From: Haliclona indistincta | Taxonomy: Eukaryota > Porifera > Demospongiae > Haplosclerida > Chalinidae | Reading direction: 5' to 3' | DNA: 64,000 bases | Assembly (NCBI GenBank): GCA_964017065.1 | Contig: OZ024784.1 | Span: 17,465,152 to 17,529,151 of the forward strand | Part shown: positions 13,111 through 62,797 of the stretch, in pieces | How positions within the stretch are numbered: position 1 is the stretch's first letter | Layout: each line of letters begins with the position of its first letter | Position numbers and translations under genes: made by a program | Notes under the pieces: model-generated | What the model was told of the DNA's origin: nothing | The model's input: the letters and a program-made list of their open reading frames with translations, nothing else | Database searches by the model: none

Positions 13111-13179
13111 ACTGCTTCACCATTGGACCTAAAATCTTCATCTAGATCATCTTCTATTTTGTAATAATTTTTATAAACA

Positions 13180-13781: not shown

Positions 13782-13844
13782 ATTCACGTGGTTGCATGTG
13801 ACTTCTAACTAACGCGCACTCGACCACGTGGGTTGTTTGCCAAC

Positions 13845-35076: not shown

Positions 35077-38000
35077 ATGGCGCTCGTTGATGAGTTCCCG
35101 ATAGCGAGAAGCGGCGCCGTTATGTTTGTATACGACCATCAGCTACTGCTGTGGGGAGGGATGACGCAAGTTGTGCTGGGAGAGGGAGAGGATCGCTTCA
35201 ATATTGACATCAACTTGCCAGGTAGGTCCACACGTGTACATGTACTTGACCCGGCTGAAGTCAGCACCACATTCGCCAGCACCACATTCATAGAAACCAT
35301 AAAACTACATTTTTGTGGTTTGGGCATTGTGCCTATAATAATAGCTGCTGTGCGCGCTTGACAATATCACCATAATAGAGTGCGCTTATGTACACGCGTG
35401 GTCTCGTTACTATTCAGTAGTACTGTACGGCATGAGAGAGGCAGCTAGGGCAGGAACATGAGTACAACGATCACTGGCAGTAAGTCATTCATACTAGATA
35501 GCTGGGAGGGAGAAAAGGCTTCTCAAATGCAGTTTTGCTAGGGGGCGTGATTATATTTATAATTAAATTTAGTACATTAAAGTTGATTGATGATCGAGTT
35601 GTTTGTTTCTAGTTGTTGAATGAGCCCAGCAAAGTATCTCGTTTCAAATATCATTTTTTGTTTCCTGAACTCAGCAATTAAGAGTTTGAATGTTGATTTA
35701 CCAATACGAAGCATGTGCATGGCACGCGCCTTATTATATTGCTGGGTGTGGCACTAACTGACCAAATTATCCATGTGAGTTTCTTCTTTATGTGCATGTG
35801 CTTGTTTCAAATCTCATTTTCCTTCATTCTAGTTGTCTCCTGGACCCAGCAATAAGACTTTGAACATCGAAATCTACCGATACCAACACGCTCCGCCTTA
35901 TTGCTGGGTGTGGCTTTAACTGACCAACTTCTACATGTGAGTTTCTTCTTCAGGTGCATGTGTTTGTTTCAAATCTCATTTTCTTTCATTCTAGATGTCT
36001 CCTGGACCCAGCAATAAGACTTTGAACATCGAAATCTACCGATGCCAACACGCTCCGCTTTATTGCTGGGTGTGGCTTTAACTGACCAACTTCTACATGT
36101 GAGTTTCTTCTTCAGGTGCATGTGCTTGTTTCAAATCTCATTTTCTTTCATTCTAGATGTCTCCTGGACCCAGCAATAAGAGCTTGAACGTTGAAATCTA
36201 CCGATACTAACACGCTCCGCCTTATTGCTGGGTGTGGTACTAACTGATCAACTTGTACATGTGAGTTTCTTCTTGATGTGCATGTGCTTGTTTCAAATCT
36301 CAGTTTGGGCTAGACTCCTGGACATTCAACAGACAAGCTGATCTCTTTTTCACTCTCAACACACTCCAATCCACCCAGGAATAACATTGGTTAACTCCTC
36401 CCACTTCCTGTTTTCCAACCCAAATACGTCAAATGCGATGTTCATCAATTTCTTGCACATTTTCAATTTGGGCTAGACTCCTGGACATTCAACAGACAAA
36501 CTGATGCCATTTCCACTCTCAGCACACTCCAATCCACCCAGGAATAACATTGGTTAACTCCTCCCACTTCCTGTTTTCCAACCCAAATACGTCAAATGCG
36601 ATGTTCATCAATTTCTTGCACATTTTCAATTTGGGCTAGACTCCTGGACATTCAACAGACAAACTGATGCCATTTCCACTCTCAGCACACTCCAATCCAC
36701 CCAGGAATAACATTGGTTAACTCCTCCCACTTCCTGTTTTCCAACCCAAATACGTCAAATGCGATGTTCATCAATTTCTTGCACATTTTCCATTTGGGCT
36801 AGACTCCTGGACATTCAACAGACAAACTGATGCCATTTCCACTCTCAACACACTCCAATCCACCCAGGAATAACATTGGTTAACTCCTCCCACTTCCTGT
36901 TTTCCAACCCAAATACGTCAAATGCGATGTTCATCAATTTCTTGCACATTTTCAATTTGGGCTAGACTCCTGGACATTCAACAGACAAACTGATGCCATT
37001 TCCACTCTCAGCACACTCCAATCCACCCAGGAATAACATTGGTTAACTCCTCCCACTTCCTGTTTTCCAACCCAAATACGTCAAATGCGATGTTCATCAA
37101 TTTCTTGCACATTTTCAATTTGGGCTAGACTCCTGGACATTCAGCAGACAAACTGATGCCATTTCCACTCTCAACACACTCCAATCTACCCAGGAATAAC
37201 ATTGGTTAACTCCTCCCACTTCCTGTTTTCCAACCCAAATACGTCAAATGCGATGTTCATCAATTTCTTGCACATTTTCCATTTGGGCTAGACTCCTGGA
37301 CATTCAGCAGACAAACTGATGCCATTTCCACTCTCAACACACTCCAATCCACCCAGGAATAACATTGGTTAACTCCTCCCACTTCCTGTTTTCCAACCCA
37401 AATACGTCAAATGCGATGTTCATCAATTTCTTGCACATTTTCAATTTGGGCTAGACTCCTGGACATTCAACAGACAAACTGATGCCATTTCCACTCTCAG
37501 CACACTCCAATCCACCCAGGAATAACATTGGTTAACTCCTCCCACTTCCTGTTTTCCAACCCAAATACGTCAAATGCGATGTTCATCAATTTCTTGCACA
37601 TTTTCAATTTGGGCTAGACTCCTGGACATTCAACAGACAAACTGATGCCATTTCCACTCTCAGCACACTCCAATCCACCCAGGAATAACATTGGTTAACT
37701 CCTCCCACTTCCTGTTTTCCAACCCAAATACGTCAAATGCGATGTTCATCAATTTCTTGCACATTTTCAATTTGGGCTAGACTCCTGGACATTCAACAGA
37801 CAAACTGATGCCATTTCCACTCTCAGCACACTCCAATCCACCCAGGAATAACATTGGTTAACTCCTCCCTCTTCCTGTTTTCCAACCCAAATACGTCAAA
37901 TGCGATGTTCATCAATTTCTTGCACATTTTCAATTTGGGCTAGACTCCTGGACATTCAGCAGACAAACTGATGCCATTTCCACTCTCAACACACTCCAAT

Positions 38001-41000
38001 CTACCCAGGAATAACATTGGTTAACTCCTCCCACTTCCTGTTTTCCAACCCAAATACGTCAAATGCGATGTTCATCAATTTCTTGCACATTTTCCATTTG
38101 GGCTAGACTCCTGGACATTCAGCAGACAAACTGATGCCATTTCCACTCTCAACACACTCCAATCCACCCAGGAATAACATTGGTTAACTCCTCCCACTTC
38201 CTGTTTTCCAACCCAAATACGTCAAATGCGATGTTCATCAATTTCTTGCACATTTTCAATTTGGGCTAGACTCCTGGACATTCAACAGACAAACTGATGC
38301 CATTTCCACTCTCAGCACACTCCAATCCACCCAGGAATAACATTGGTTAACTCCTCCCACTTCCTGTTTTCCAACCCAAATACGTCAAATGCGATGTTCA
38401 TCAATTTCTTGCACATTTTCAATTTGGGCTAGACTCCTGGACATTCAACAGACAAACTGATGCCATTTCCACTCTCAGCACACTCCAATCCACCCAGGAA
38501 TAACATTGGTTAACTCCTCCCACTTCCTGTTTTCCAACCCAAATACACTCTCATCCACTCTCATGATTATTATTGTACTATGTTATTAACTCAACCTATA
38601 GTTAAATTTTAACTTTCAACTTTTTTTCTTTTTTTTAGTTATTTTTGTTAGGATTCTTGTGTTACTGATTACAATTCACCGGCTCTAAAATTCTAAAAGT
38701 ACGGTCGGTCGGTCGGTCGTACGTACCACAGTAAAAAATTGGTGTACTACACGCTAGGTGGGGCTCGCTCAGGCTCGCCCCAATTATGTATTGTTCATGC
38801 AGGGTACTTTAACTTCAGTCTATGGGAATCTAGGATTCTCTGCGCCCAATGATGCTGAAGAAGGTACTTTGGCTCTTATAAATTCCATTTGTGATGGCCT
38901 TCAGGTATAGCTATTATGTTGGTTTGATGTAATAAATCAATGATTATTATCATGCAGACATTTCCTGGAAGTGATATTTTTGAATTGAAGTTTAAGATCA
39001 CAGCATCCTGTCCAGTTTGTATCGAGGTGTTGCAATAATATTTGTTATGTATAATGTATTGTGCACATGCAGATTCCAGCAACTGTGGAGGAAACTTCAT
39101 TTCAAATCACTCCATGTACCTTTGGCAGTACCAGTAATAAGAGACAGCATTGTTCCACAACTGTGTTGTGGAACAATGCTGTCTCTTATTATAAGACGCA
39201 ACTGATCATAAGTTCTAGGTAGCTATATAGTATGCCGGATCGAGATAAATTTATGCCAGCTTCTTGCAGCCAATGCCACAACTGCCAAAGCAACTTACAG
39301 GTCCATGGTGAAATACTGAAGTTACCAGATAACCTGTTGTTGGTAGTTCACCGAAACCTTGTTGGTAGACGCACAAAAGATAAAACTGCTGTGCAGCTTG
39401 ATGAGTAAGTTGTGTCAGATGATGATTAAAATAACTTATGATAAAATTATAGACTGTTGCAAGTTGATTCTCAAACCACTTATAGTTTGGCTGGTGCAAT
39501 TGTGAGTAGCATTATGCATAGCATAACTATTTAACATAGTTCTTAAAATTCATGTAGGTACATTATGGATCAAGAACTGGAGGCCATTGTATGTTTTAGC
39601 ATGCTTCAGTATAATAGAATTGACATAATGATTGTTGTTAAATTTAATGCAGATAACGCAATTGTGTCCAATGGCTATGGATGGACTATTTATGATGACA
39701 GTGCTGTAAGAGAGGAGAATAAAAAGGATTGGGCAATGTCAGAAAATGTTGCTGTTAGTATTCATTGTACAAGTGCTGTGCATGGAAACATGCATCATGT
39801 GTAATACTGCATTATTAACTATAATTATAGAGGAACGTATACATTGTAATGTACATCAAGAATCAATCAAAGGTGATTATAGTTAAGAGTTTAACAAGTA
39901 ATATTGCACATTAAAATAACAGGTCTATCTCAATCCATCAACTGACTTCAGTAACTATGGAACAGTAGTGAGTTTTTACATTTTGTAATGTTCATGCAGC
40001 AAGGGTTTATTGCAGAAGCCACAATTTGGAATAACTTTGGAAGAGGAAAAAACGGTACAGCCTATTTTGTAAGATTGCTAAGTTTATTAATTATATTCAT
40101 CAGATTAAGAAAAACCTTGCTCAGGTCCCTGGAGGGGAGACATTGACAGAAGGTCAATGGCTGTCATCTGAGGTGATTTCAATGCCTGCCTCGTGTGTCA
40201 CAAATTCATAATAATCTGTACTGAATGCAGATCATCTGTGAATATATGCACAGCCTCATACAGATGCATGATAAGCGAAAGGTATAGCTAATAATATTAA
40301 ACTCATTAATTATTCATTCATTTGCACTTGTTGCATCCAGGTTGCTTTTTCATTTGATCCAGTTTTCCTCCCAAATTTAAAGGCAAGAGGTTATAGCACT
40401 GTGGAGCGCTATGCCAAGGTTTGCGGCGCTGTCCAGTAGATGCATGGATGCATGACTTGTATGCATGCAGGGCATTGATCTTTTAAAGAAGGAAATCATA
40501 CTGTTCCCGGTTCATTGCCCACAGCATTGGATGTTGGTGGTAAATATGCATGCATGCATAACTCCAATAAGATTTTATTATTTCTTCAGGTTGTTTTTAT
40601 ACAACAGAAGCATGTTTGCTGTATCGATTCATTACAGCATTGCGCTAATCAGCCTGCTGATTATGTTAACTGGATATGGTATGCAATTGTTCATGCATGC
40701 ATGCATTTTTGTCCAGTATCATTATAGCCATACACACAGGTACTTTCTTGCCAGGAAATGTGGTCTTGACCGTCGGCAATGGAAATTTTGTGACATGGTT
40801 TGTAATGTAATGTAATGTTTACAATAATATAGCTAATATTATTTTTATGAAGACTCCATTTGCCCCTAAGCAGAAGAACATGTATGACTGTGGTGTATTC
40901 ATTTGTATGGTAATGTATTATTCGTATTGGTAACATAGTTTTGATTGTTAGAGCAGGCAGCAAAATGCATTATGCTGGGATGCAAATTGTCATACACACA

Positions 41001-44000
41001 GGTACATGTATTCAATACAAATTAAATCATCATTACCTTTTTCGATTATAGATGGACGCAATTAAAGCTAGACTTGAGATAGCCAAGACAGTCATGGAAA
41101 TGAAGACAAAAGCAGTCACTATTCAGGCAATAATTAACTCTTGCAGTTGTGTATGCATAATGCTGGGCTTATTAGGATTCAGATGATACAGATGGTGGTG
41201 ATGACAGTGATAATGATACCTTCCCCTCTGTCAACTTCAAGCTAATTGCAGAAAAAGTATAATACCTTTGTTAATACCGTACACTGTGTATATGCACTAC
41301 AATTATATAATATTCATGCATTCAATCATATCCATGTACTCTGACTATATACTTTTTTGCAGAAGTCTACGATGTGCAAGAGTACTGACAAAGTTGTATA
41401 CAATGATGTATGACATTATTATAGCTATATACATTCTAACACGATTTTTTTTCCAGAAGTCTATGACGTATCCAAGTACAGGTGATATAATTGCCACTTT
41501 GCACATTATAATTGTGTTGATATGAATAAAACTTGCTATGTCATGCAGCCATCATTGCAGACTACAATCAAAGACCAATATTTTGGGTGCATGGACTATG
41601 CACATTGTATGTGGAAGATGTATTAAATGTTCTATGTGAAGATCGATCAACGTGCATTACTGTAAGTCTGTGAATGCATCAAACAAATTAATTATTATGT
41701 GTTTCTATATACACACTATATTATGTAGGTTCTGTATTTTTGCTTGCATGTATGGGTAAAGATGCTGGAGAAATTTCAATTACAGGTTAATGCATCTTGC
41801 ATGAAAACAGAATTAAAGTTGTTCATTGAATGCATCATCAGATGGATGCATATGAGAGGCAAGATCAACTCAGCATTGAAATTATTCATGGCGTTGACAT
41901 ACAGAAGTGTCGAAAGCTCAATGCCACAGATTTTGACAAATTGAATCCATGCAGACACATCCAGGTACATTCACAAGTGGAAAAAGCTTCATGATTTACT
42001 GTTGATTTACAGAGAAGCCCATGTGATATTAAATATCTGATCTGCCCTTTCTTTTTGAGGCATTCTTTTATATGCGTAAGTTAACAATACTATACATGCA
42101 GTCATGCAAACTATTAAATAACTAATACAATATAGGTTGCTGATTTTAGAAAGAAAATTGTCTACTCCTATGATCCTGTTAATGATCATCATAAGCAACA
42201 TCTAAAGGAAGTAGAGCTGTTTCGGTAATGCATGCATGGATATAGAATTCATGAATGTCATACATGTATAGTGATGGATGCGAACATAGTATAAGTATGC
42301 ATAAATCTAAAAGGCATTATCACCTTTTTATAACATAGGAGGGTGGTGGGAACATGGCATTCTCTGACAGAGTCAAGAAGGCGACAATACAATGACTGGA
42401 CTATTACCAGCATAAAAGTATGCATCACTCATTATACTTAATTTTTACTGCAAATACTATATTATATAAGGTGACAACATTCATTTCACCAAATAGCAGC
42501 GTTGTCACACTTTGCAAGGTAATCATCATTAATATTGCGTGCATGTACATATACATGTATAACTATCATTCACTATCATGCAGTTTATTCATGACCTCCT
42601 TTGGAGTAATTGCTCGTGTTCACAGTTAGTAGACCATGGCAAAAATTTAAATGTAAGATGCTTGGCTAATATGAATCATCAATGGAAATATTTTACAGGA
42701 TGACAAGATGTGGCTAGTAAAGGAATTATGTAGAAGGTATGTGTTTATTAACTTTTTTTGTTGAAATATCTTTTTGTGAAAGGTATGTGTTTAAAACAGC
42801 AAAAATTAATGCATAAAATTAATTAATAAATCTCCGTAAACTGCTGCATAATCCATGCAGCATTGACAAGTTGGACACCGTCAATTGTGATGAGGAAATT
42901 GCAGAAAGAGTAAGAAAGCAGCTTGGCATTGTTGGTCAAGGTATGATGATTATATTCAGGCACACCAATAATTAGCTACATATTACATTTAATCATGAAC
43001 ATTCAGAATGTGCCTCATCAGTACACACAGATGCAAGTGAAAAAAATGAAGATGTGGTTATTCAGCTACTAGATTGTTACGGTACCTTTGTGCATGCACA
43101 TAATTATTTACTTATTACAATAATCAATTATGTATTGCAGATGAAACTACATTACCTAAATACATTTTGAGACCACAATTTAGTGGAAATTGTGATGTAG
43201 TAGATGCAGATGACATCTTTAACAGTAGGTCTAGGAGGGATATGTGGATTGCTGGATTTCCCAGGCTAGAAAGACCATCAGACGAGTTAGACATAAACTA
43301 ATCCATTAAGTTTTGATTATGTAACTCTATTCATATAGGCATTGGTTGTTTACACGACTATTTATAAGAGCAGTATTGAAGACTGCAGAGGCAAGAGACT
43401 TTTCCAATTGTTTAATTATTACAATTACTGGCATCATAATAGCCAACACTGAGGTCTGCCTGCACAGGAGAATTTGACAGTGTCTTTGCCATGAGAGAAA
43501 GTAGGAGGAAAGGCATAGACAAATATAACATGTGGCCATTAGAATCAAATGATATGGTATAAACTAGTGCACATGCATGTTACACATGAAGTATGCATAC
43601 AAGCATAATGTCAATAACAAAATGCATGCAAATCACCCAATGCAGTTTGAGGAAGTGATTTACTTTTTAAGTGGCATAGTGGGTGACGTAGAACAAAGAC
43701 ACCGCCATATCGCTGGTGATATGGTATATCAAGTGCTCTTCCCTGAGGTATGATAAAATGAAGAATAATAAAATGCTTTTGATTTCGTAATAGGCCATGA
43801 CAGTTCTAATAGGAAATAAATTTAATATCAGATACGAGGAGGCAGCAAAGTCATTTCTTACTAAGGTTCTAAAATTTAAATAGATACACTATTATTCGTT
43901 ATACAATTATTAACATTTTCTTCTTTCACTTTTCATAGACACTACCACAGGTGTGAGCAAGACAGACAGAATAGCTTAACAATAAATTCTCTAATTTTTG

Positions 44001-47000
44001 TTTATGTATAATAATTGCATGCATGCACAATGCACCGTTGTAATAAATGGATATAACAGGCAGGCATAAATAGCACATCACATACTTCCAATGCATGGGT
44101 ATTTAATTGTGGCCATAATAATGTTTAGGTTTTGAGCTGGAATCTCGCTTCAAGTCTATAATCCAAATGCACTGAAACTTCAATATATATGGATTTGACT
44201 AGTCAATCTCATTCTACTATTACCTTATGCAAGTTTTTATTAGTATAATAGTCATATGCACCCTGGTATGGTAGTGAGATCAGTGATCATAGGTATGTAC
44301 GCAGACCCTGTCATGTGAAGCCATCATCATTACTGTAGGCAAGTAGCTATAATAATAATGATGAACACATTATGGATACATGAATTATTTATGAGAACCA
44401 AAAAGTCCGAAACAGATAAATATTGTCTGTCTGCAGTTGCAAAGAATTACATACATAATAAAATTATACTGCAAAACATTCAAACTCATTCTTGAAATTG
44501 GGTTTAGAAACACGAAAAGAAAATAAGATTTACAATCAGCATATGTACCTCAACAAGAAATTCACAACAGTTAGTGCCACATGCATGCCCAGCAATAAAA
44601 CGGAGCATGTTTATCAGTTGGAATTAATCACATTCAAACACTTATTGCTTTGTCCAGAACAGAGAAAGCAGAAATGGCATCAATATGTCTGTTGAACATT
44701 CATAAATAACAATAAAACAAGAACACTACAAAAAACAAGGAAAAAGTTAAAATTTAGCTATAGGTTGAGTTTATAACATAGTACAATAATAGTAATAATC
44801 ATGAGAGTGGAAACACTGGGTAGATTGGAGTGTGTTGAGAGTGGAAATGGCATCAGTTTGTTTGCTGAATGTCCAGGAGTCTAGCCCAAATTGAAAATGT
44901 GCAAGAAATTGATGAACATCGCATTTGACGTATTTGGGTTGGAAAACAGGAAGTGGGAGGAGTTAACCAATGTTATTCCTGGGTAGATTGGAGTGTGTTG
45001 AGAGTGGAAATGGCATCAGTTTGTCTGCTGAATGTCCAGGAGTCTAGCCCAAATTGAAAATGTGCAAGAAATTGATGAACATCGCATTTGACGTATTTGG
45101 GTTGGAAAACAGGAAGTGGGAGGAGTTAACCAATGTTATTCCTGGGTAGATTGGAGTGTGTTGAGAGTGGAAATGGCATCAGTTTGTCTGCTGAATGTCC
45201 AGGAGTCTAGCCCAAATGGAAAATGTGCAAGAAATTGATGAACATTGCATTTGACGTATTTGGGTTGGAAAACAGTAAGTGGGAGGAGTTAACCAATGTT
45301 ATTCCTGGGTAGATTGGAGTGTGTTGAGAGTGGAAATGGCATCAGTTTGTCTGCTGAATGTCGAAAATGTGCAAGAAATTGATGAACATCGCATTTGACG
45401 TATTTGAGTTGGAAAACAGGAAGTGGAAGGAGTTAACCAATGTTATTCCTGGGTGGATTGGAGTGTGCTGAGAGTGGAAATGGCATCAGTTTGTCTGTTG
45501 AATGTCCAGGAGTCTAGCCCAAATTGAAAATGTGCAAGAAATTGATGAACATCGCATTTGACGTATTTGGGTTGGAAAACAGGAAGTGGGAGGAGTTAAC
45601 CAATGTTATTCCTGGGTGGATTGGAGTGTGTTGAGAGTAGAAATGGCATCAGTTTGTCTGTTGAATGTCCAGGAGTCTAGCCCAAATTGAAAATGTGCAA
45701 GAAATTGATGAACATCGCATTTGACGTATTTGGGTTGGAAAACAGGAAGTGGGAGGAGTTAACCAATGTTATTCCTGGGTGGATTGGAGTGTGCTGAGAG
45801 TGGAAATGGCATCAGTTTGTCTGTTGAATGTCCAGGAGTCTAGCCCAAATTGAAAATGTGCAAGAAATTGATGAACATCGCATTTGACGTATTTGGGTTG
45901 GAAAACAGGAAGTGGGAGGAGTTAACCAATATTATTCCTTGGTGGATTGGAGTGTGTTGAGAGTGGAAATGAGATCAACAAGAAACTCACATGCAAAACT
46001 TGGATAGTGCCACACTCAGCAATAAGGCGGAGCAACATTCAAAATCTTATTTTTGGCGGCATCTAGAATGAAAGAAAATGAGTTAAAATTATAACTCATA
46101 ATATTATAGTTAATTTTAAACAAAATGTCCTACCGTTCAGCTATTATATCATTTGTAAATATGTAACTAGTATTGTTGAAAAATAATTATGCAGACTGTG
46201 AATTATCATTTCCTTATGTAATATCATTATAGACTGTAAAGTTAGTCTGTAGTACTGACTCACAATCAGCGCTCCATGATTTGAGAGTTAAGGCGTACGT
46301 TGGCAGTAACTCTGGCGCGATCTGACGTTTCTGTCTCTAGATGTGTTACATATGCGTCGTGCACGCCCATTTAGTAAATGCGCACACAAAGCGCACTAGA
46401 TGTACATGTATACAACACATGTTCAACAAGTACATTCTTGTGGTTTATAGTGAATGTGGTGCTGGCGAATGTGGTGTTGACTTCAGCCGGGTATGTACTT
46501 GTCAAGCTTCATTATTATTTTTATTATTAATTTTAGAAATTGCAGAACTTGAAGATGATGATGAGGATGGTGGCCAGAATGAGATGTACATTGATATATT
46601 TGATTTGAAAACACGAGAATGGAGAAAGCAGATTGTTGATGGTGACGTGCCAACACAGTGTAGAGGATCATTCCATGTAGTTGTTGGTAATACGCTGTAC
46701 TTGTTTGGTGGTTATAATGGGCCAGATGGTTTCAGCAACACCTTATATGCACTCAATCTGGACACATTCAAATGGCAAAAACCAAAACAGGATCCTCTTC
46801 GTGCTCCCACTCCAAAGTTTCTTGGAGGAATGGTAGCTTTTGGGAATAGACTGGTAGTCTTCGGAGGCTATGGCAACAAGGCCGATTTTAAAGAAACCCA
46901 TGGAGCAACGTTCTTGCCTAACGATACCTTTGGTGGTGGCAATTCAGGAAGTGGATGGAACAATGCTGTGCATGAGTATAATATTGACACTGGTAAGGAA

Positions 47001-48109
47001 ACACCCATAGCAGCAGTATGTGTATACTAGTTGTGTATAGGTGAGTGGAATGAGTGTAGCTGTACTGGTGAGCGACCTCCTCCTTGTGATAAGTTCACCT
47101 TCAATCAGCTGGATAAACGGAGGGCTATACTGTTTGGAGGCAAACAGAGCAAGTACACCATTGCCTTCAATGAGGTATACATTCTGACTGCTGCAGAGGA
47201 GGGAAAAGAAATGGTAAGTCCACTTGCTGTCTCTGTTAGTTTACACTGTGTTCTTCTCATAGCATTTTGATGGACCCTTCAGACCACAGGCTGGGCAGCA
47301 GTGGCCAGTAGGGAGAGGGCTGCATGCTGCTGCTTGTCTTGTAGACCCTCAGTCAGATCTTGCCTGCACTGACCAGCACCTGATGGTTGTATGGGGGCAG
47401 GGATGGGATGCAAAGCATGTCAAGGATATCTGGATACTCCACATACAGAGCATGACATGGAAAAAGGTAATTATATAGACATACTAGTTTTTTCCAAAAT
47501 CATTTTGGAAACAGTGGAATATTTTGCTTCGTCCGAGGATGTTCCATATGGGATGCAGCTATCACCATGGTGACAGACACACTGATGTTCTAGTGTATGG
47601 AGGCAACAAGCACCGCCAGTCAAAGTTTGAGCGTCATGTCATGACTGATCTTATCATCTTTAAATTTGGTAAATCATCCTCTGTTTGATCCACTCACTCT
47701 CTCTCTCCTCTTGTCTAGGTTCATTGCAGAGTCTGTACGATAAGTGTGTCAAGATGGTGTCTCATGATCGCCATCTGTACAGCAAGAGTCTAGCAGTACT
47801 ACCTCCTAAGATTCAATCAGTCCTGTCAAGTGCAAAGGGCGTTGATGTTGCATGTCACATTATTTACCCTCATGATAGATTTGGTGAGTAAAACATGTAT
47901 TTATACGTACTCATCTCTTTCATAATATTACTTCAGGCTCTATCCAGACCCTGCAGGAAATGTGCATTAGGTTTGCATGTGGTGATCAGCAGCTCTATGA
48001 ACATGGGCTCTCTGTGCTGCAACCTCACTTCAAGTCAGCTCTGAGAAGAGCCAAGGATGCAAATATCTCTTACCGCATAGTCTATCCTCGAGACATTGAC
48101 TTTCAGTAG
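35077..48109 (+). CDS. Kelch-repeat protein, copy A (first intron carries a transposon)
   Basis: The protein is a kelch beta-propeller of unknown function. Exon 1 (35077-35221) encodes MALVDEFPIARSGAVMFVYD and LLLWGGMTQVVLGEGEDRFN. Exon 2 resumes at 46537 with EIAELEDDDEDG and the kelch blades (SFHVVVGNTLYLFGGYNG; GGMVAFGNRLVVFGGYG). Later exons hold RRAILFGGKQSKYTIAFNEVY, HMGCSYHHGDRHTDVLVYGG, and a non-kelch C-terminal segment (SLQSLYDKCVKM; QTLQEMCIRFACGDQQLYEHG; SYRIVYPRDIDFQ, stop 48107-48109). The reading frame is intact across all exons and close to that of copy B, so the 11.2 kb insertion has not obviously killed it. Excising the insertion and one 9-bp duplication leaves a 62-nt first intron. 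Whether the 11.3 kb intron is spliced efficiently is not known. Confidence 0.75.
35240..35248. repeat. 9-bp target-site duplication, left
   Basis: ATGTACTTG immediately precedes the left transposon end ACCCGGCTGAAG and is repeated exactly after the right end at 46493-46501. Confidence 0.9.
35249..35290. repeat. Left terminal inverted repeat
   Basis: It starts ACCCGGCTGAAGTCA and includes a partial internal duplication CACCACATTCGCCAG/CACCACATTCA. The right terminus, reversed, is the same over about 42 bp with one clear substitution at position 16. Confidence 0.88.
35600..36303. repeat. Tandem repeat A, 162-bp period
   Basis: About four units are present, with the box CCCAGCAATAAG at 35845, 36007 and 36169 (162-bp spacing) and more diverged units to the left. 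Each unit contains the box again inverted (CTTATTGCTGGG), so each can fold into a hairpin. One reverse-oriented unit is at the right end (about 45970-46105). Confidence 0.8.
36304..38546. repeat. Tandem repeat B, left array, 163-bp period, about 14 copies
   Basis: The marker GGCTAGACTCCTGGACATTC recurs from 36308 to 38427 at exactly 163-bp spacing, wherever I measured it. Copies are nearly identical, with a few recurring variants (for example CAATTTGG/CCATTTGG) that repeat in blocks of several units. This suggests expansion by duplication of multi-unit segments. No long open frame runs through it. Confidence 0.92.
38803..39960 (+). CDS. USP-type deubiquitinase-like segment (His-box half)
   Basis: The segment is inferred from spliced exons with clear 3' splice sites. 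Exons at 38803, 38958 and 39073 encode a CPVC...CSQCHNC pair of CxxC motifs of the kind found in the USP finger. Next comes EILKLPDNLLLVVHRN, matching the USP LP-x-x-L-x-x-x-x-x-R strand. The His box VHYGSRTGGHY is split between 39558-39588 and 39653, followed by GWTIYDDSAV and a final strand VYIVMYIK. This order is the C-terminal half of a USP catalytic domain with the catalytic His and the Asp/Asn-containing DDS motif. I cannot find the N-terminal Cys box, which should precede it; upstream is only the tandem array. It is therefore either truncated, inactive, or has an unseen 5' exon. It reads in the same direction as the Ulp1 segment. Confidence 0.6.
39135..39191. repeat. Perfect 26-bp hairpin at a 5' splice site
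   Basis: Two 26-nt arms (39135-39160 and 39166-39191) are perfect reverse complements around a 5-nt loop (CTGTG). The left arm begins at the T of the intron's GT donor, so folding would bury the splice site. Confidence 0.85.
40127..41125 (+). CDS. Ulp1/SENP-type SUMO protease (family C48)
   Basis: Nine short exons read as one C48 peptidase domain. The sequence runs LTEGQWLSSE, IICEYMHSLIQMHDKRK, VAFSFDPVFLPNLKARGYST, then GIDLLKKEIILFPVHCPQHWML (catalytic His in the HW pair), VCCIDSL (catalytic Asp), TPFAPKQKNMYDCGVFICM (oxyanion Gln and catalytic Cys), QAAKCIMLGCKLSYTQ and DAIKARLEIAKTVMEM. This follows human SENP1 (WLNDEIINFYM, IHLGVHWCLAVV, YYDSM, QMNGSDCGMFACKYAD) block by block, so the full catalytic set is present. 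The family cleaves SUMO-type modifiers. Ulp1-like proteases are known passengers of several eukaryotic DNA transposon groups (Mutator-like, CACTA, Zisupton). Whether it is fused to the USP-like part or separately transcribed cannot be told. Confidence 0.72.
41168..43301 (+). CDS. Downstream spliced segment with a second, degenerate C48-like stretch
   Basis: Exons continue in the same direction: an acidic linker (DSDDTDGGDDSDND), RPIFWVHGLCTLYVEDVLNV, DAYERQDQLSIEIIHGVDIQ, then IKYLICPFFLRHSFICVADF and KKIVYSYDP. The last part resembles the Ulp1 core strand-helix (hydrophobic strand, H-x-F-x-x-V, ..., Y-x-D), but the Cys motif is not seen. After it come NDWTITSIK, FIHDLLWSNCSCSQLV, DKMWLVKELCRR, EEIAERVRKQLGIVG, and a segment ending FPRLERPSDELDIN before a stop at about 43299. 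The second domain is a guess from pattern. The rest resembles nothing I know. Confidence 0.4.
43460..43885 (+). CDS. Last recognisable exons in the transposon core
   Basis: Three exon-like pieces read GEFDSVFAMRESRRKGIDKY, FEEVIYFLSGIVGDVEQRHR and MVYQVLFPEAMTVLIGNKF, ending EEAAKSFLTKVLKFK with a stop near 43882. The VLFPEA...YEEA pattern is reminiscent of the C-terminal tail of PWWP3/MUM1-type proteins, but that is weak. It is probably the C-terminus of the same gene as the preceding segment. Splice links were read by eye. Confidence 0.35.
43886..44744. other. Non-coding part of the transposon core
   Basis: AT-rich sequence between the last exon-like piece and the right inverted arm, with several ATGCATGC palindromes. 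I see no gene. Open frames here lack similarity and splice partners. Confidence 0.4.
44745..45972. repeat. Tandem repeat B, right array (inverted), about 7 copies
   Basis: This is the reverse complement of the left array: the marker CTAGCCCAAATTG recurs at 44881, 45044, 45207, 45514, 45677 and 45840. One unit around 45360 has lost about 19 bp including the marker. The first 65 bp (44745-44812) are the mirror of the unique segment at 38555-38612, so the inverted arm extends beyond the array. Confidence 0.9.
46451..46492. repeat. Right terminal inverted repeat
   Basis: It ends CTTCAGCCGGGT, the exact reverse complement of the left end, and is followed directly by the target duplication. Confidence 0.88.
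46493..46501. repeat. 9-bp target-site duplication, right
   Basis: ATGTACTTG, identical to 35240-35248. The host intron resumes at 46502 and ends in ttttag at 46536. Confidence 0.9.
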
Positions 48110-48184
48110 CCAACACCGAGGGTGGGGTTAAGGGTTACACGTGGGCGGTTGGGCGTTAAATAGGTTATTCTTGTTTACCAAGAG

Positions 48185-50076
48185 ATGGCGCTCGTTGAAG
48201 AGTTCCCGATCTCGAGGAATGGCGCTGTTATGTTTGTTTACGATCATCAGCTACTAGTGTGGGGAGGAATGACGCAAGTTGTGCTGGGAGAGGGGGAGGA
48301 TCGCTTCAATATTGACATCATCTTGCCAGGTCAGGGCATTGAAACGTGTTTGCTATGGGAGGGGTACGTGAGCCCAAAATATTGAGGTACATGTTCCACG
48401 CACAGACTTGGGCTCACATGCCAAGCTGTATGTACATGATGATTTGCATGTGTGATAAGTTTTGTGTTATATTCAGAAATTGCAGAGGAAGATGATGATG
48501 AAGAGAGCTACGATGGTGCCCAAAATGAGATGTACATGGAAATATTTGACTTACGGACACGAGAATGGAGAAAGCAGATTGTTGATGGTGATGTACCAAC
48601 ACAGTGTAGAGGATCATGCCATGTAGTTGTTGGTAATATGCTGTACATGTTTGGAGGTTATAACGAGCCAGATGGTTTCAGCAACACCTTATATGCACTC
48701 GATCTGGACACATTCAAATGGCAGAAACCAAAACAAGATCCACTCTGTGCTCCCACTCCAAAGTTCTTTGGAGGAATGGTAGCATTTGGGAATAGACTGG
48801 TAGTCTTTGGAGGCTCTGGCAGCAAAGACGGGTTTCATACAACCCATGGAGCAACATTCTTGCCTGATGATACTTTTGGTGGCAATTCAGGAAGTGGATG
48901 GAACAATGCTTTGCATGAGTATAATATTGACACTGGTAAGTGAAACCACTCATACATACAGAGAGTATCAGTCTAGTATGTGTGTGTACTACTTGTGTAT
49001 AGGTGAGTGGAATGAGTGTAGCTGTACTGGTGAGCGACCTCCTCCTTGTGAACAGTTCAGCTTGAATCAGCTGGATAAACAGAGGGCTATACTGTTTGGA
49101 GGCAAACAGAACAAGTATACCATTGCCTTCAATGAGGTATACATTCTGACTGCTGCAGAGGAGGGAAAAGAAATGGTAAATCCACTTGCTATCTCTATTA
49201 GTTTACACTGTGTTCTTCTCATAGCATTTTGATGGACCCTTCAGACCACAGGCTGGGCAGCAGTGGCCAGAAGGGAGAGGGGCGCATGCTGCTGCTTGTC
49301 TTGTAGACCCTCAGTCAGATCTTGCCTGCACTGACCAGCAGCTGATGGTTTTATGGGGCCATTTGTGGGATGCAAAACATGCTAAGGACATCTGGATACT
49401 TAACATACAAAGCATGACATGGAAAAAGGTATGATAATATATAATATAGTACATTAGACATTAAAGGTATTTTGTCAACAGTGGAATATTTTGCTTCGTC
49501 CGAGAAAGTATCATATGGGATGCAGCTATCACCATGGTGACAGACACACTGATGTTCTAGTGTATGGAGGTAACAAGCAACGCCAGTCAAAGTTTGAGCG
49601 ACATGTCATGACTGATCTTATCATCTTTAAATTTGGTAAATCATCCTCTGTTTGATCCACTCACTCTCTCTCTCCTCTTGTCTAGGTTCATTGCAGAGTC
49701 TGTACGATAAGTGTGTCAAGATGGTGTCTCATGATCACCATCTGTACAGCAAGAGTCTAACAGTACTACCTCCTAAGATTCAATCAGTCCTGTCAAGTGC
49801 AAAGGGCGTTGATGTTGCATGTCACATTATTTACCCTCATGATAGATTTGGTGAGTAAAACATGTATTTATACGTACTCATCTCTTTCATAATATTACTT
49901 CAGGCTCTATCCAGACCCTGCAAGAAATGTGCATTAGGTTTGCATGTGGTGATCAGCAGCTCTATGAGTATGGGCTCTCTGTGCTGCAACCTCACTTCAA
50001 ATCAGCTCTGATAAGAGCCAAGGATGCAAATATCTCTTACCGCATAGTCTATCCTCGAGACATTGACTTTCGGTAA
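48185..50076 (+). CDS. Kelch-repeat protein, copy B
   Basis: This is a tandem duplicate of copy A, starting 75 bp after its stop codon. Exon 1 (48185-48329) encodes MALVEEFPISRNGAVMFVYD, and its intron is 147 nt (48330-48476). Exon 2 begins EIAEEDDDEESYDG and contains blades SCHVVVGNMLYMFGGYNE and GGMVAFGNRLVVFGGSGSKD. The remaining exons follow copy A closely, including near-identical introns, and end SYRIVYPRDIDFR with TAA at 50074-50076. The last 180 codons are almost unchanged between the copies, including intron sequence, while exon 2 has several replacements. This fits recent duplication or gene conversion in the 3' half. The function is unknown; kelch propellers are usually protein-binding platforms. 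Confidence 0.82.
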
Positions 50077-52848: not shown

Positions 52849-55739
52849 TTAGTAGAACCGATAGTTGAAAAATGAGCTCACTTTAATCTCCTGGTCCTCT
52901 GATCCAGTGAACACTGTGTCATGCCAGAGTGCTAGCGAATGTATGGCTCCTTCGTGTCTCTGGAGTGCCTGGATTGGTAGCATGTTCTCCAGATTCCACA
53001 CCTGTTGAATTAGAAGACACAGTAACCTTACACAACACAGCTACTGTCTAATGGATGTAGGGATTGCAATATTGAAGCAAAAAAAACACTGTTCGGAGAC
53101 AGTCTCTGTTTTTTTAAGAGTATGATCATTGTGTACTGACCTGTACTACGGAGTCGGAAGATGCTGAGAACATGAACACACCAGATGGTGACTCGGTCAC
53201 TTTCAGCACTGTCACTATCCCAATGTGACCGGTCAATGTACACACATGATTGAGAGTGACTCTGTCGTACACTTGAATATTCTGATTATGAGTCCCTGAG
53301 ACACAAGGAGACGGACCAATAAAATGTACTTGCTACTGAACAACACTCGTGTACCCCTTCCTTGCTCTTACCTACAATGACTAGCTTCCTGGTGACAGCT
53401 ATAGAGTAGATAGCGCCATAACTAGTGCTCATTTGGGTCACCATGGCGAAGTCGCCACTTGCCTTCCACACATGAATCTTGTTATGTGAACCACTGTATA
53501 CCACATCCTAAAAGGAAGAAAATGGTGAAAATCACCTAGGCTTACTATGGTCTTACCTGTCGCTTGTCGTAGACCAGTGCTCTTACCCAGTGGGTCAGTC
53601 CGTCTTTGTTACCAATACTGTGTACCTCAGTGAGTGTGAGCGGGTCCCAGAACTATGCGTGCACGAGAGCTATTGTAACGTGAGTTTATACACATACTTT
53701 GATGGATCCGATAGACGATGTGATAACATACTCTTTACTGCACACCATTGCACTGGTTATACCATCGTGTGCTTGCTGGAGTGTGAGATAGTTGTCATAT
53801 GCAGTGTTTAATAACCCATTACACTCCAGGCATTCAGTAGTTGTCAAAACTGTATTTGACTACGGAACTCACATCGATTTTTCCTATCTCTTCTAGTGTG
53901 TCAATCTGCCATGATCTTAATGACAGATCAGTGCCTGTGCTGTACAATATTCCTCTACCAACAGCTAAACACATTGTCTGTCACAATAAACCAATGACGA
54001 TCAAAATAAGAAATGCGAAAAGAAAAGTGATTGCTAACCGCTTCTTTGTGAGCAGGTATGGTCTTCAGGCATCCTCTTCTAAGATCAGCAATGTCCCAAA
54101 CCTTGACTGTCCCATCACTACTACCACTGTATAGATGAGCTCCAAACGCAGCTTGACACCATATAGTAGCTTTGTGACCTCTAGTGAATGAAGAAAAAAT
54201 CGCAAACTAAACAGTGCAATATTAATAGTACCTGAAGGTTCCTATACATTTCAAGGTGAAAGGCATCTGCCATACAAATGGTCTATGCTTCATCTCGCCC
54301 ACAGCGGCATGAGATGATGCAACGGAGTAAACAGATGCAATTGACTCAGTCGAATATCTCTTGTACTGCTCTGCATAAGATCTGGGGCAGACAGAAACAG
54401 CAGTCTAATTTACTTTCTGTGAACAAGCATGTTATTAGAAGATACATGTATAGCATACATTCTAGGTATAACCTACTACACTTGTTATGTATTCATAGCA
54501 ACAGTGCATAGCAAAAGTGATCTCAAATTCTCAAACAACTACTAGGTTTGCTATGACTAACCGTCTAAGGTAGTATGGCGTGGTGCTGTTCTCTCCTGCA
54601 GGAGGTGGACCATTGCCACGTCGTAATCTAACAGACTTGAATGATTCCACTTCAGTATCCAGCTGGTCCATGCGAGACGTCAGTGTAGTGATGGCTCTAT
54701 GACAAGAGGGGAGATAGAGGGGGCAGTGATTCAGCTATACTCTCACAATGCCTGCTGCTCCATCTGCAGTGTCATGGTCTGCTTTTCAATGGTCATCTTC
54801 TCCAATGCTTTGAGCACCTTTTGCATCGAGATTTGCAATGCTTCATTCTGCTCTTTCACTGCCTTTAGCTATGAGATGTCAATGTAAGGACTGTATGCAT
54901 TCTTCATAAGCTTGCATGCAGACACACATAGATGTGTTTACAAATCATTACATGCATAGGTTCCATGAAACTGACTGAATTACCTCTTTCATTGTGATAG
55001 TAAGCAGCTGTGACTCATCCGTGTATACACAGTGCTGCTTGTGCTCGGTGACCTCTTCCTTCAGTCCTCTGAATGTACAGCCTACACGAAAACAAACAGG
55101 TCTATCTAGTTGCTAGCCAGTCCGAGCAGCTACTAGCGTACCAAAGTCAGAGAAAGGGCACGGCACTTGACTGCATTTTGCAAGATGGTCGTCAAAGTCT
55201 TTTTTGCGTAATGCACCACACTGGTCTCCTCCGTACGGGCACACAGCATGTGAGAATTCACATTTGTCCTCGTGATGGTCTCGTGAGCCCAGCTTGACCA
55301 TCTGGCTGCAGCCGGTCTGATCCCGTTCACAAGTGAGTCCTCCGTCCCGCGAGATCAGACCAAAACAACAGTATATCAACAGATCATCAACCTGACATGC
55401 AGGATTGTAATATGATAAAACCCAGCTAGTACATGCTCTCTGTACCTGTCCACTAACTGCTCTGTTGAGTACGAGCTGTGTCCCATCACACTCAACACTA
55501 TCCAGTGGGCATCGCGTGCCAGTGAGAACCATACTCTCAATGCAACCACGACAGAACGTGTGCCCACATTTGACTGATATAACTGGTTCTGAGAACACCC
55601 GTTGACAGACAGGACACACCAGGGCCGACGGCTCGGTGACGAACATGGTTAGTCTTCTAGGCATCGTCGGAACTAGTGACAGCTGTGGGCTGCAGAAGAG
55701 ATGAACCATTGTTAGACTGCTCCGACTGCTCGCAGCCAT
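52849..55739 (-). CDS. TRAF7: TRAF7-like E3 ligase (RING, TRAF zinc fingers, WD40)
   Basis: TRAF7 is a RING ubiquitin ligase with a C-terminal WD40 propeller that acts in MEKK3/JNK signalling in vertebrates. The ATG at 55739 gives MAASSRSSLTMVHLFCS. The RING is CPVCQRVFSEPVISVKCGHTFCRGCI with the closing CPLD. Zinc-finger segments follow: LTCERDQTGCSQMVKL, HHEDKCEFSHAVCPYGGDQC and LAKCSQVPCPFSDFG. Next is a coiled coil with LKAVKEQNEALQISMQKVL-like helices, encoded around 54750-54870. The WD40 exons include DLRRGCLKTIPAHK, VYSGSHNKIHVWKA, YGAIYSIAVTRKLVIVG and the final HEGAIHSLALWHDTVFTGSEDQEIK, ending at 52849. Order and spacing match human TRAF7. The C-terminus runs about ten residues past the last blade. 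Divergent with EXOC5, 194 bp between starts. Confidence 0.85.
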
Positions 55740-55933
55740 ATTTGCTGCTATTGAAGCTCTTGTAAGCAGTGCATAATTTTAGCTATCATAATAACAGCAA
55801 CTAGCACTACAAAACAAAACACGCTGTGCAACTTACAACAATTTTAGCTGCGGAATCCACTTTCGATGCCAGCCATTAAACCACGCCCCTCTGTATACAT
55901 CGACCAGTCACGTGATCAAATTCCCTGCTAGCT

Positions 55934-58900: not shown

Positions 58901-60948
58901 AGGAAGACAGATTACAGACCAGAGGAGCCGGCAAATGCTGAAGTCACTCATGTTGGTCACACTATTGGTCACTCATGTTGGTCACACTATTGGTCACTCA
59001 TGTTGGTCACACTATTGTCACTCATGTTGGTCACACTATTGGTCACTCATGTTGGTCACACTATTGGTCACTCATGTTGGTCACACTATTGGTCACTCAT
59101 GTTGGTCACACTATTGGTCACTCATGTTGGTCACACTATTGATCACTCATGTTGGTCACACTATTGGTCACTCATGTTGGTCACACTATTGGTCACTCAT
59201 GTTGGTCACACTATTGGTCACTCATGTTGGTCACACTATTGACCACACTATTGGTCACTCATGTTGGTCACACTATTGGTCACTCATGTTGGCCACACTA
59301 TTGGTCACTCATGTTGGTCACACTATTGGTCACTCATGTTGGTCACACTATTGATCACTCATGTTGGTCACACTATTGGTCACTCATGTTGGTCACACTA
59401 TTGGTCACTCATGTTGGCCACACTATTGGTCACTCATGTTGGTCACACTATTGGTCACTCATGTTGGTCACACTATTGGTCACTCATGTTGGTCACACTA
59501 TTGGTCACTCATGTTGGTCACACTATTGACCACACTATTGGTCACTCATGTTGGTCACACTATTGGTCACTCATGTTGGTCACACTATTGGTCACTCATG
59601 TTGGTCACACTATTGGCCACTCATGTTGGTCACACTATTGACCACACTATTGGTCACTCATGTTGGTCACACTATTGGTCACACTATTGGTCACTCATGT
59701 TGGTCACACTATTGGTCACTCATGTTGGTCACACTATTGGTCACTCATGTTGGTCACACTATTGGTCACTCATGTTGGTCACACTATTGGTCACACTATT
59801 GGTCACTCATGTTGGTCACACTATTGGTCACTCATGTTGGTCACACTATTGGTCACTCATGTTGGTCACACTATTGGTCACTCATGTTGGTCACACTATT
59901 GGTCACACTATAGTAGTATTGTATGTGGTATTGTCCATTGTAGTATATTGAACATTGTCTGTGTGTTGTTCATTCAATGTCACTCTTTGTTCATTCAGAC
60001 TTGCACTAAGGCAGTGGCGTACATAGAAGAGTGCACTAGTGTCATAAAGTTATCTCTGGATGGCAAGAATCAAGAGGTGGTTCTCTTGGAGTTTGGCATC
60101 AGAGTACACCGAGTGATCTATGAGATGATCCTGACATTCACTGTCAACTCAGCAGGCAAGACGAGAGAGCGAGAAAGAGAGAGAGCGAGGGAGAGAGAGA
60201 GAGGGGGTAGGGAGATTTGGGATTGTGGAGAGTGGGAGAGATAAAGAGAAAGGAAAAAGAAAGTGAAAGCAGGAGGGAATGAAAATGAGAAAGATAGAGA
60301 CACAGACATTATACCACTTCAGGAGCTATGTTTCTCATCTGTGATCTCAATGAGTACAGAAAAGCAGTGAAGGAGTTCAAAGTAAGCTGAGTAGTGGGCT
60401 TGTTGTGTTATGATGTAGGCTAAAGTTTATAGTCTGTTGCTCCCACACAGTGTGTGTACTATCAGTCTACTAGTGGTTGTGTTAGTGGTATAGTAGTGGT
60501 TTATAGTGTAGTGTATTGTAGGAGTGTCTGTTGTGTTATGGGACCATCTAGAGACCTTAGATGTAGTGATTGTAACATTGTATAGTGGTGTGTGTGTATA
60601 CTATCAGTCTGTGAGTGTTTTGGTACTCTCTACTATAGAACCAGTATGTTGACGAATTATTCGACAACCTACAAGCTCTCTGCAATATTTTCATTGTCAT
60701 GCCGAACAACCTCAAGCAAGTTTGTTCAGAGGAACCTTATGTAAGTTGTATTAACAAAACCGTTAGTAAAAATAGAAGTTGAGCCTTTAAGTTACTGCAA
60801 TAGAGTTCGTGTGTGTGTGAGCGGACAACGCTTCAATACTGCCTCTTCCTGTTCACAGATGAGCTTTGACAGAAGTGTTATTATGCACATGGTTCAAATG
60901 AGATCCGACTACAAGACAGCTAAATTACACAAAGTATTCCAGCAGTGA
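55934..60948 (+). CDS. EXOC5: Exocyst complex component 5 (SEC10)
   Basis: EXOC5/Sec10 is a subunit of the exocyst, which tethers secretory vesicles to the plasma membrane. The ATG at 55934 gives MAAPSLRDFEP. Exon 2 continues DAFVLEKYLEKLSQMNP and FDPQVLLESFQNSLSLINDL. Then come ITYVARKVVHLGDQLEGSNN (human ISYVATKVCHLGDQLEGVNT), ELINKLNVLANELPL, MTKFIQNVTEKVLL, FHLIEKQFRDLILPS, MVGTLKQILSTQRKTDYRPE, SLDGKNQEVVLLEFGIRVHRVIYE, MFLICDLNEYRKAVKEFK and NNLKQVCSEEPYMSFDRSV. It ends HKVFQQ, TGA at 60946-60948. About seventeen exons cover the whole family length. One intron (after the TDYRPEEPANAE exon) is filled by a 25-bp minisatellite, and the next has a GA-rich tract. Confidence 0.9.
58943..59911. 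repeat. Minisatellite, 25-bp unit (13 + 12 bp subunits), in an EXOC5 intron
   Basis: About 39 tandem units are built from GGTCACTCATGTT plus GGTCACACTATT. Variants include GACCACACTATT and doubled 12-bp subunits. Because 25 is not a multiple of three and the unit has no stop codon in any + frame, long apparent frames run through it in all three frames; these are artefacts. The array begins exactly at the exon end, where the first GT of the repeat is a possible splice donor. Confidence 0.95.
60160..60300 (+). repeat. Purine-rich (GA)n tract
   Basis: A simple AG/GA-rich stretch in the EXOC5 intron after the exon ending in TVNSA. The open frames on either strand are compositional. Confidence 0.85.
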
Positions 60949-61162: not shown

Positions 61163-62476
61163 TTAATGGTTGTGTGATGAGTCTGAACTACTAAGTAACT
61201 GGATGAGCTCGTACAGGTCTCCTCTGCTACCACCAATGTTTTTCTGCCATATTTTAAGCAGTTGTAGCGCCTGGGCTGCTGGATTACCAAACTGTTGTTT
61301 AAGAGCCTCCAGTTCAATGTCAGGCACGTCGACTGCACTCGCCAGAAGAGGCATATCTTGAGTCACGAATTTAGAACAGCGAACTAGGTCGGCTAATGTG
61401 GGAGCATTCTGCATGTCTTGTTCGGAGTATACTTTGACCGGGCCTCCGTTTTGCTGAGCCTGCAGAGGCTGTGGGAAAGAGGGAAGAGGGAGTGGTTTAA
61501 CCTATTGATGGACAATAACATTATAGACACCACTACTACCACAGTCAAAGTGAAGAGTGTTTGGTTAAAGCAATATATGTCAACACAGGATAGGTATAGT
61601 ACCTGAGTGGGATAGTATATCTTGTTACAATAGTAATAGGTATTACTAGGAAATACTCCGCTATTGTTACCCTACTGAGTACACTGTAATCTTAATACAA
61701 TAACAGACGCAACTGAAATTCAATGCCGGGCCGGGTGCATACAGCAGGTCGGTAATCTTACCACTTGTGCCGGGCTCCCGTTGCTGTACGTGACACCATT
61801 CTCCACCACTCCTTGCTGCTGTGGGTGATGTTGCTGCCTTGATGGTGTTTGGGAACTGAATTGCATGTAAAGGAGAGTAGCTATTATAGTGTATAGGTTA
61901 CCTTGAGTTGCTTGGTAGATCCTCTCTAGCATTTTGCATCTGGTGAATGGATGGGTTGACTGTTAGTAAAGATGTCAGCATTCCTGATTGCTCCTCGACA
62001 AACTGTGTCAGTGCGGGAACACGTTCATATTCAGGGGTTGTTGGTGCTTGCTGGGCCAGCGAAGTCGTACGCCGCTCAGTAGCTCCTGGTCCACGACCAG
62101 TGTACGTCCCCCGAGGCAATCGCAATCTCTTCTGCGGATCCCCCATGTTCATCAGTGCTTCCAGTCGCGGCTTCTGCTCGCGCCATCGACGCACAAGACT
62201 TTCGTCCACGTTGAATTGCTTGCCAGCAGCAGAATTGCTGGTCTCCAGAGCATACGCGGCAACCTGCACTTTAAATTCTATGGAGAATTTGTTTCGCTTG
62301 GGTCCCCTAGTAGGGACCGTAGATTCTTCAGGACTAGCTCTTTTTGCACCCGACGGAATGGCTTCGTCGTTGTCAGTGTTCTCCGTATCATTGGTCTCCC
62401 AGTAGTAGCTAGTAGTCGGCATGTGCTCGCTAATTCCCTCTTTCATGTCTTCGCTAGGCATCACTGGTAGCTCCAT
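61163..62476 (-). CDS. Brinker-type DNA-binding domain fused to a Death-like domain, gene 1
   Basis: Exon 1 (62476 to 61902) encodes an acidic start (MELPVMPSEDMKEG), a basic KR stretch and a Brinker/psq-type helix-turn-helix: KFSIEFKVQVAAYALETSNS, AAGKQFNVDESLVRRWREQK. The WR of the recognition helix is conserved. A Ser/Gln-rich linker (SSQTPSRQQHHPQQQ) occupies a second exon. The third exon encodes a Death-fold-like helical domain: LADLVRCSKFVTQDMPLLAS, VPDIELEALKQQFGNPAAQA and LQLLKIWQKNIGGSRGDLYE, ending SSDSSHNH at 61163. The QA-LQLLKIW-x-x-x-x-G spacing is the Death-domain signature. The pairing implies a transcription factor that could be recruited by or recruit Death-domain adapters, but that role is inference. 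It neighbours a paralogue with the same order of domains. Confidence 0.75.
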
Positions 62477-62797
62477 AGTAGCTATTTAGCTCCGTAGTAG
62501 CTACTGACCACGTTGCCTGGTCACTTGTTCTTGTTAGTGGTTAGTGACTACTAAAATTAGAACTAGTGGTTAGTACCTATACTATAAATAGTAATCGTTC
62601 TATAACCCGGTAGCCACACCTCCACCACAAAACGTGGACAATAACAAGTTGTTATAAGCATGTATGATGACACAGAAAACATAATAATAATTATTATTAT
62701 TTCAATTGCAGCTATGTGCTCAGCTCTTTGTTGCTGGAAGTTAGACTGGTGAAGAGAAAAATATTGCAACGGTCAGGTAATAGCTGATGCAAGTATG
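62477..62797. other. Gap between the two DNA-binding/Death genes
   Basis: This is the promoter side of gene 1 and the 3' side of gene 2. It holds an AT-rich (ATT)n stretch near 62680-62700 and an imperfect local duplication of TAGTAGCT. No gene is visible. Confidence 0.4.

Follow-up and report, generated by a model that had tools for sequence, protein, structure and literature searches.

A window of 64,000 nucleotides from the sponge Haliclona indistincta (contig OZ024784.1, positions 17,465,152 to 17,529,151) holds an 11.2 kb foldback DNA transposon copy, E1, within an intron of a kelch-repeat gene. Our preferred reading, to which we assign a probability of roughly 80%, is that E1 is a recent insertion of a large Mutator/Rehavkus-type transposon, in a copy shortened by an internal deletion. 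The parent lineage of E1, represented elsewhere in the genome by the 20.5 kb copy E2, carries a run of modules in which a DDE-type transposase candidate stands beside two proteases, a ubiquitin-specific protease (USP) and an Ulp1/SENP-like protease.

Two segments of E1 align closely with E2. Positions 38540-38695 match E2 2695-2851 at 98.7% identity, and positions 38699-44810 match E2 9611-15720 at 99.8% (E2 coordinates include a 200-bp flank). Six substitutions and two indels separate the two copies across the 6.1 kb core, and the junction adds one more differing base. What E1 lacks is a 6.76 kb stretch in which E2 has its PHD finger, its transposase candidate and the beginning of the USP, Cys box included. 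By eye, the join in E1 shows a 7-nt filler, CTAAAAG, beside CTAAAA. A third copy, E3 (7.5 kb), is missing all sequence between a point within the left array and window position 40703, and with it the exon for the Ulp1 His; it is without the USP and part of the Ulp1, yet shows a perfect 9-bp duplication. Indeed, both ends are retained in E1, E2 and E3, and each of the three is flanked by a perfect 9-bp duplication. The USP Cys box and the D, D and E motifs of the transposase are present in E2 and in another copy, E4, and were not found in E1 or E3. Judged by this sequence comparison, E1 arose recently from an E2-like element by internal deletion. More generally, a copy resembling a cargo element can be the deletion form of a large parent.

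E1 begins with ACCCGGCTGAAG and finishes with its reverse complement, and ATGTACTTG directly flanks both ends as a perfect 9-bp duplication. Its arms are made from tandem arrays of 162- and 163-bp units, with inverted matches reaching 615 nt at 99% identity (coordinates in Table 1). The initial annotation of the window had described exact inverted ends, a perfect 9-bp duplication and array-built arms, and was right on all three. The 162-bp unit is similar to the inner part of the outer regions, and the 163-bp unit is dissimilar. We also considered the array units as multiplied transposase sites, comparing 49 array rows (some overlapping) with the 12-bp tip of the element. The 34 rows with units other than 173 bp, among them all rows from the window, matched the tip no more closely than Markov-shuffled units did (p 0.275-0.975). 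For 14 of the 15 rows with 173-bp units there were 3 mismatches to the tip (p 0.015-0.065); because these 14 rows share one repeat, they count as one weak hint only, and the idea was rejected.

Once the element and the second duplication are subtracted, the kelch intron measures 62 bp. A tandem paralogue at 48183-48331 and 48472-48744 (90.6% and 87.5% identity to the E1-bearing gene) has a 140-bp gap, without the element, at the corresponding place within its span of 48183-48744. Tandem kelch-gene paralogues were likewise noted at 46341-47030 and 48443-48943, with the transposon in the intron of the first one only.

When the left 172 bp of E1 were searched against the genome (46 contigs, 144 Mb), at least 40 end matches appeared; apart from E1 itself they represent 22 loci (E2-E23). 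Sixteen of these loci are two-ended and six are one-ended, making 17 two-ended copies with E1. Perfect 9/9 duplications flank 10 of the 17 (E1, E2, E3, E4, E6, E7, E8, E9, E12 and E15), and inverted arm similarity is found in 16. The cores vary among copies with these ends. Besides itself, a 514-bp piece of the E1 core found E2 and E3 at 99-100% and E4 at 66%, along with a 74-bp stretch at C4:5430463. Long open reading frames in some other copies match hAT transposase and reverse transcriptase (Pfam), which we take as nested insertions. Elsewhere, two arrays in opposite orientation, built on a related unit at 153-bp spacing, lie ~5 kb apart (G000:C7:4804951-4806389 and 4811162-4813232); this pair is perhaps another member of the element group.

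By tblastn, collinear same-strand blocks corresponding to the PHD finger, transposase, USP, Ulp1 and a third conserved module occur in E2, E4 (14.9 kb) and a further locus, L045, the stretch of which ends before any PHD and shortly after Ulp1. The splice models used here are predictions, with some joins made by hand. In hand-joined exon models, the PHD finger (PF00628) scores above the Pfam cut-off in E2 (1.9e-6) and E4 (2.4e-8); it is absent from E1 through the deletion, and in E2 and E4 it would be fused to the DDE part. Transposase identity to E2 is 59% for E4 and 43% for L045. The E2 transposase candidate contains the motifs HCDATG, VIDRS and CVSH, a conserved W, and NRTNGPIEAWN, and D1, D2 and CxxH are invariant in three relatives. 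Such a D/D/E-CH-W layout is described for MULE (Mutator-like element) and hAT transposases in PMC5225508, which also gives the spacing in Muta1 as 68 residues for D1-D2 and 135 for D2-E. In E2, D1-D2 is 74 residues and D2-E at least 219, the latter longer than in Muta1. Because no Pfam family matches the transposase, its DDE assignment rests on these motifs and on their conservation in three relatives. The joined E2 transposase matched no integrase or other transposase profile in Pfam. The MULE profile PF10551 hit 52 places in the genome and the KDZ profile PF18758 hit 14, none of them in the fetched copies or the four near-full transposase loci described below, in six-frame searches that can overlook diverged or spliced domains; PF10551 likewise left the joined E2 transposase unmatched. 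With PF18758 matching only elsewhere in the genome, KDZ identity was dropped as unsupported. Viral contigs searched for transposase relatives gave 31 pattern matches, of which none was confirmed.

The USP of E2 has a Cys box (NMCWLNAILQ), a His box (GGHY when spliced) and an Asp box (GWTIYDD). E1 retains the Cys-pair exons (to 39404), the His box at 39558-39593 (GGHC unspliced, GGHY after splicing) and the GWTIYDD exon, and the Cys box is missing. Spliced models score above the PF00443 cut-off for L045 (6.5e-21), E2 (6.3e-18) and E4 (1.4e-11), and the single E1 piece scanned falls under it (E=0.054). As its motifs indicate, the E1 USP is a remnant without the catalytic Cys box. A near-perfect hairpin of ~57 bp at 39135-39191, also present in E2, probably lies within an intron of this remnant.

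The Ulp1 domain of E1 has its His motif at 40471-40539 (HWMLV), Asp in IDSL (by eye), and Gln and Cys at 40853-40909 (PKQKNMYDCGVF); with exons joined by hand it matches Pfam C48 (PF02902) at E=3.9e-15, above the cut-off. The L045 Ulp1 gives 1.3e-16 on its spliced model and, aligned to SENP2 (E=3.3e-16), keeps H, D, Q and C. Ulp1 alone in E1 retains its full set of catalytic motifs and could remain catalytic, if expressed at all. One Ulp1-like exon of this type is retained in E5-E9 and E12 (62-64%). A six-frame genome search with the C48 profile found 19 places, including that of L045, and passed over the window and E2, which indicates that six-frame searches miss short exons. Self-processing at GG was rejected, as the VPGGETL motif before Ulp1 is not conserved in L045. 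Following Ulp1, the end of the third module weakly resembles the PWWP3A/B C-terminal domain (PWP3A-B_C; 0.0024 in E2 and 0.012 in E4, both below the Pfam cut-off).

These results divide the initial annotation's account of the core, which had both proteases and no recognisable transposase. Ulp1 stands, and for USP only a remnant is found here; E1 itself does lack a transposase, having lost by deletion the DDE-type candidate and PHD finger that its relative E2 carries. The suggestion that this Mutator-like element is non-autonomous is probably right.

Are the proteases part of the transposon? A transposase exon of E2 has 28 matches in the genome, of which four cover at least 345 of 393 residues (E2, E4, C3:11178991 and C3:15213959, the last being L045); the remaining 24 are partial, and the neighbour count covers the four near-full loci. 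Measured from where the transposase match starts, all four have the USP Cys box at a distance of 2.4-3.3 kb and the Ulp1 His exon at 4.5-5.5 kb, further along the same strand. A 59-bp GT-AG gap separates the final transposase exon of E2 from its USP Cys-box exon, and by eye the two can be spliced in frame. The genes of L045 are flanked by inverted arrays with a unit 76-79% like that of the window (C3:15204926-15205886 and 15220312-15221284), indicating that arms and genes have stayed together. Proportions of synonymous differences (pS, 0.70-0.93) greatly exceed those of nonsynonymous differences (pN, 0.26-0.40) in 10/10 comparisons spanning the transposase, USP, Ulp1 and third module, with the PHD left out, and two unsaturated comparisons give dN/dS of 0.14 and 0.18, values biased low because the compared exons were chosen for conservation. 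The four compared modules look to be under constraint. The initial annotation had suggested that the proteases may be accessory genes, a description that the shared order and the possible in-frame splice speak against. It had also allowed that the ends might recur nowhere else, or that single-copy host genes had been trapped by chance between two arrays. We find instead 22 further loci, one of them the transposase-bearing E2, and four near-full loci with both proteases.

Several observations weigh against our reading. Perfect duplications are lacking in 7 of the 17 two-ended copies (E5, E10, E11, E13, E14, E16 and E17); the left flank of E17 reads N, and E13 and E14, of equal length and with identical flanking bases in the lines compared, probably represent a single locus that was duplicated. 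Inverted arms are missing from E4. Even with exons joined, the transposase finds no convincing family in Pfam, and the L045 USP finds USPs only weakly among solved structures (best E=0.079). The scripted E2 splice model contains an internal stop at one join. In the selection analysis, not only were the exons picked for conservation, but the synonymous sites are mostly saturated. Finally, the gap between transposase and USP is ~0.4-0.5 kb in E4 and L045, so that a single fused gene for the transposase, USP and Ulp1 modules is no more than likely.

We infer the following history. E1 most likely moved by cut-and-paste into the kelch intron, using transposase that an E2-like copy provided in trans. 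Its deletion most likely stems from faulty gap repair, of which the short filler at the join would be a trace, and internal loss in some other copies would have arisen likewise. If the modules form one spliced gene, the proteases would travel with the transposase, and their most likely role would be to deubiquitinate and deSUMOylate the transposase, or else repair or chromatin proteins at excision and insertion sites. Action of such proteases on repair factors at the break is proposed for Ginger1 in the account given by PMC2836005. Manipulation of host ubiquitin/SUMO control, as the initial annotation suggested, would be plausible. A bolder version, tentative and on balance doubtful, is a single polyprotein (PHD, DDE transposase, USP, Ulp1 and a domain like the PWWP3A/B C-terminus) that would read chromatin, cut DNA and strip ubiquitin and SUMO at the break. 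Were this true, a transposon protein and the C-terminal domain of the DNA repair factors PWWP3A/B would have a common origin.

The opposite direction of change would make E1 the complete ancestral element, with a host USP and Ulp1 trapped by pack-type capture, and E2 a later form that gained a transposase. It is true that E1, taken alone, has no transposase, and that some copies with the same ends hold unrelated open reading frames (hAT, reverse transcriptase). However, the stretch missing from E1 includes first exons of the USP itself, and the order transposase-USP-Ulp1 recurs in E4 and L045, with their transposases at 59% and 43% identity. The full module set is therefore old and E1 derived, and we regard the ancestral status of E1 as very improbable. 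Alternatively, the proteases could be cargo: an ancestor would have picked up separate genes on one occasion and carried them next to the transposase, with selection acting on some function outside transposition. The perfect duplication of E3 shows that neither protease is needed in cis, and the wider gap before the USP in E4 and L045 would suit separate genes. Against this stand the identical order in 4/4 near-full loci, the predicted in-frame transposase-USP splice in E2, and a constraint on the proteases like that seen for the transposase, which leave the cargo explanation unlikely.

A different question is whether the element belongs to another superfamily known to carry Ulp1 (KDZ, Ginger1 or canonical MULE), its foldback arms having evolved independently. 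Ginger1 is described with both Ulp1 and PHD, and Mutator elements with Ulp1 (PMC2836005); foldback arms, according to PMC4079207 and PMC3169594, arise in several lineages; and the D2-E spacing exceeds that of Muta1. Yet in the six-frame searches, which can overlook diverged or spliced domains, KDZ and PF10551 matches are absent from the fetched copies and the four transposase loci, and the joined E2 transposase matches neither an integrase nor another transposase in Pfam. We think such a placement improbable, and favour an internally deleted Mutator/Rehavkus-type foldback element.

Table 1. Features of E1 and its surroundings (window positions, except for E2)
Feature	Position	Strand	Details
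E1 element	35249..46492		11.2 kb; foldback DNA transposon copy
Target-site duplication, left	35240..35248	.	9 bp, ATGTACTTG
Target-site duplication, right	46493..46501	.	9 bp
Terminal inverted repeat, left	35249..35302	+	~54 bp
Terminal inverted repeat, right	46438..46492	-	~55 bp, 93% identity to left
Left arm tandem array 1	35737..36306	+	162 bp x 3.5
Left arm tandem array 2	36300..38546	+	163 bp x 13.8; opposite sense to right array
Internal deletion junction	38693..38699	.	E2 2852-9610 (6.76 kb) missing
USP remnant	38803..39760	+	several exons; places approximate, transferred from E2 models
Ulp1/SENP-like (Peptidase_C48) domain	40341..41007	+	short exons
Third conserved module	41176..43865	+	PWWP3A/B C-terminal domain match at C-terminal end, sub-threshold
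Right arm tandem array	44816..45971	-	163 bp x 7.2; inverted copy of left array 2
Kelch-repeat host gene intron holding E1	35222..46536	+	GT/AG ends by eye and paralogue comparison
E2, parent-type copy	G000:C7:1345722-1366202		20.5 kb

Further features were noted in the window. At 4079-8431, open reading frames in several frames look by eye like those of a Gypsy-type long terminal repeat retrotransposon, resembling its integrase, its reverse transcriptase/RNase H and a gag that bears a zinc knuckle. At 58943-59911, a 25-bp tandem repeat is present in ~39 copies, across which overlapping long frames stay open. Open reading frames match the RNA 2'-phosphotransferase Tpt1 (12092-12739, 1.9e-20), RING and TRAF-type zinc fingers (55113-55778, best 4.1e-10) and a Brinker-type DNA-binding domain (61898-62485, 9.5e-6). 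Elsewhere in the genome, the best Ulp1-profile match and a canonical MULE transposase match share a strand and are 3.3 kb apart (G000:C5:5628717-5629055 and C5:5632338-5632622), and an independent MULE-Ulp1 pairing may therefore exist in this genome.

FB/NOF elements belong to the foldback transposons. Others are Tm1 of root-knot nematodes and Tetris of Drosophila virilis, which share with the present element repeat-built inverted arms, duplications of 8-10 bp and transposase-less copies; unlike here, their descriptions, to the extent given in PMC3169594 and PMC4079207, name no deubiquitinase or deSUMOylase. Proteases do accompany transposases in other groups. According to PMC2836005, Ginger1 has Ulp1 and PHD, Mutator elements have Ulp1, and OTU also occurs on transposases. 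These elements resemble ours in combining a transposase with a cysteine protease of SUMO or ubiquitin type, in one case with a PHD finger. As described there, each has one protease type, whereas here USP and Ulp1 occur together, with a transposase that has no Pfam family. A transposase_11 protein of Trichomonas vaginalis carries Peptidase C19 (PMC2836005) and so joins a USP-type domain to a transposase, as here; it is of another transposase class, and that account mentions no Ulp1 for it. Among the literature matches listed, mostly open literature, we found no description of USP and Ulp1 on one element. The initial annotation had thought the whole combination undescribed. Repeat-built inverted arms, 9-bp duplications and a PHD finger are in fact a described pattern (foldback, Rehavkus), and the part for which no description was found is the USP/Ulp1 pair with such a transposase. 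Ulp1 and OTU proteases recur on different transposon groups (PMC2836005), where they may act in transposition, help the element to escape silencing or be mere passengers. A deubiquitinase and a deSUMOylase beside a transposase, apparently constrained across deep divergence and with natural deletion copies lacking one or both, make these alternatives testable.

The closest likeness is to Rehavkus, a Mutator-related group (PMC6446971, PMC10218199) that serves as outgroup of the MULEs, an example being Rehavkus-1_TC of Tribolium. Table 1 of PMC6446971 lists for Rehavkus a 9-bp duplication, a PHD finger, a minisatellite and one open reading frame, with arthropods and annelids as hosts, and the same source places a tandem array ahead of the 3' end. 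In Rehavkus-1_TC, PMC10218199 describes a 164-bp unit arrayed in the inverted termini, compared with 163 bp in E1 (13.8 and 7.2 copies). The sponge element likewise has 9-bp duplications, a PHD finger (in E2 and E4) and tandem arrays in inverted termini. It differs from Rehavkus, for which that table gives one open reading frame and no protease, in having USP and Ulp1 follow the transposase and in the 20.5 kb size of E2. By architecture as described, rather than by transposase sequence, membership in Rehavkus is probable, which suggests for the Rehavkus/foldback type a wider host range than the arthropods and annelids listed.

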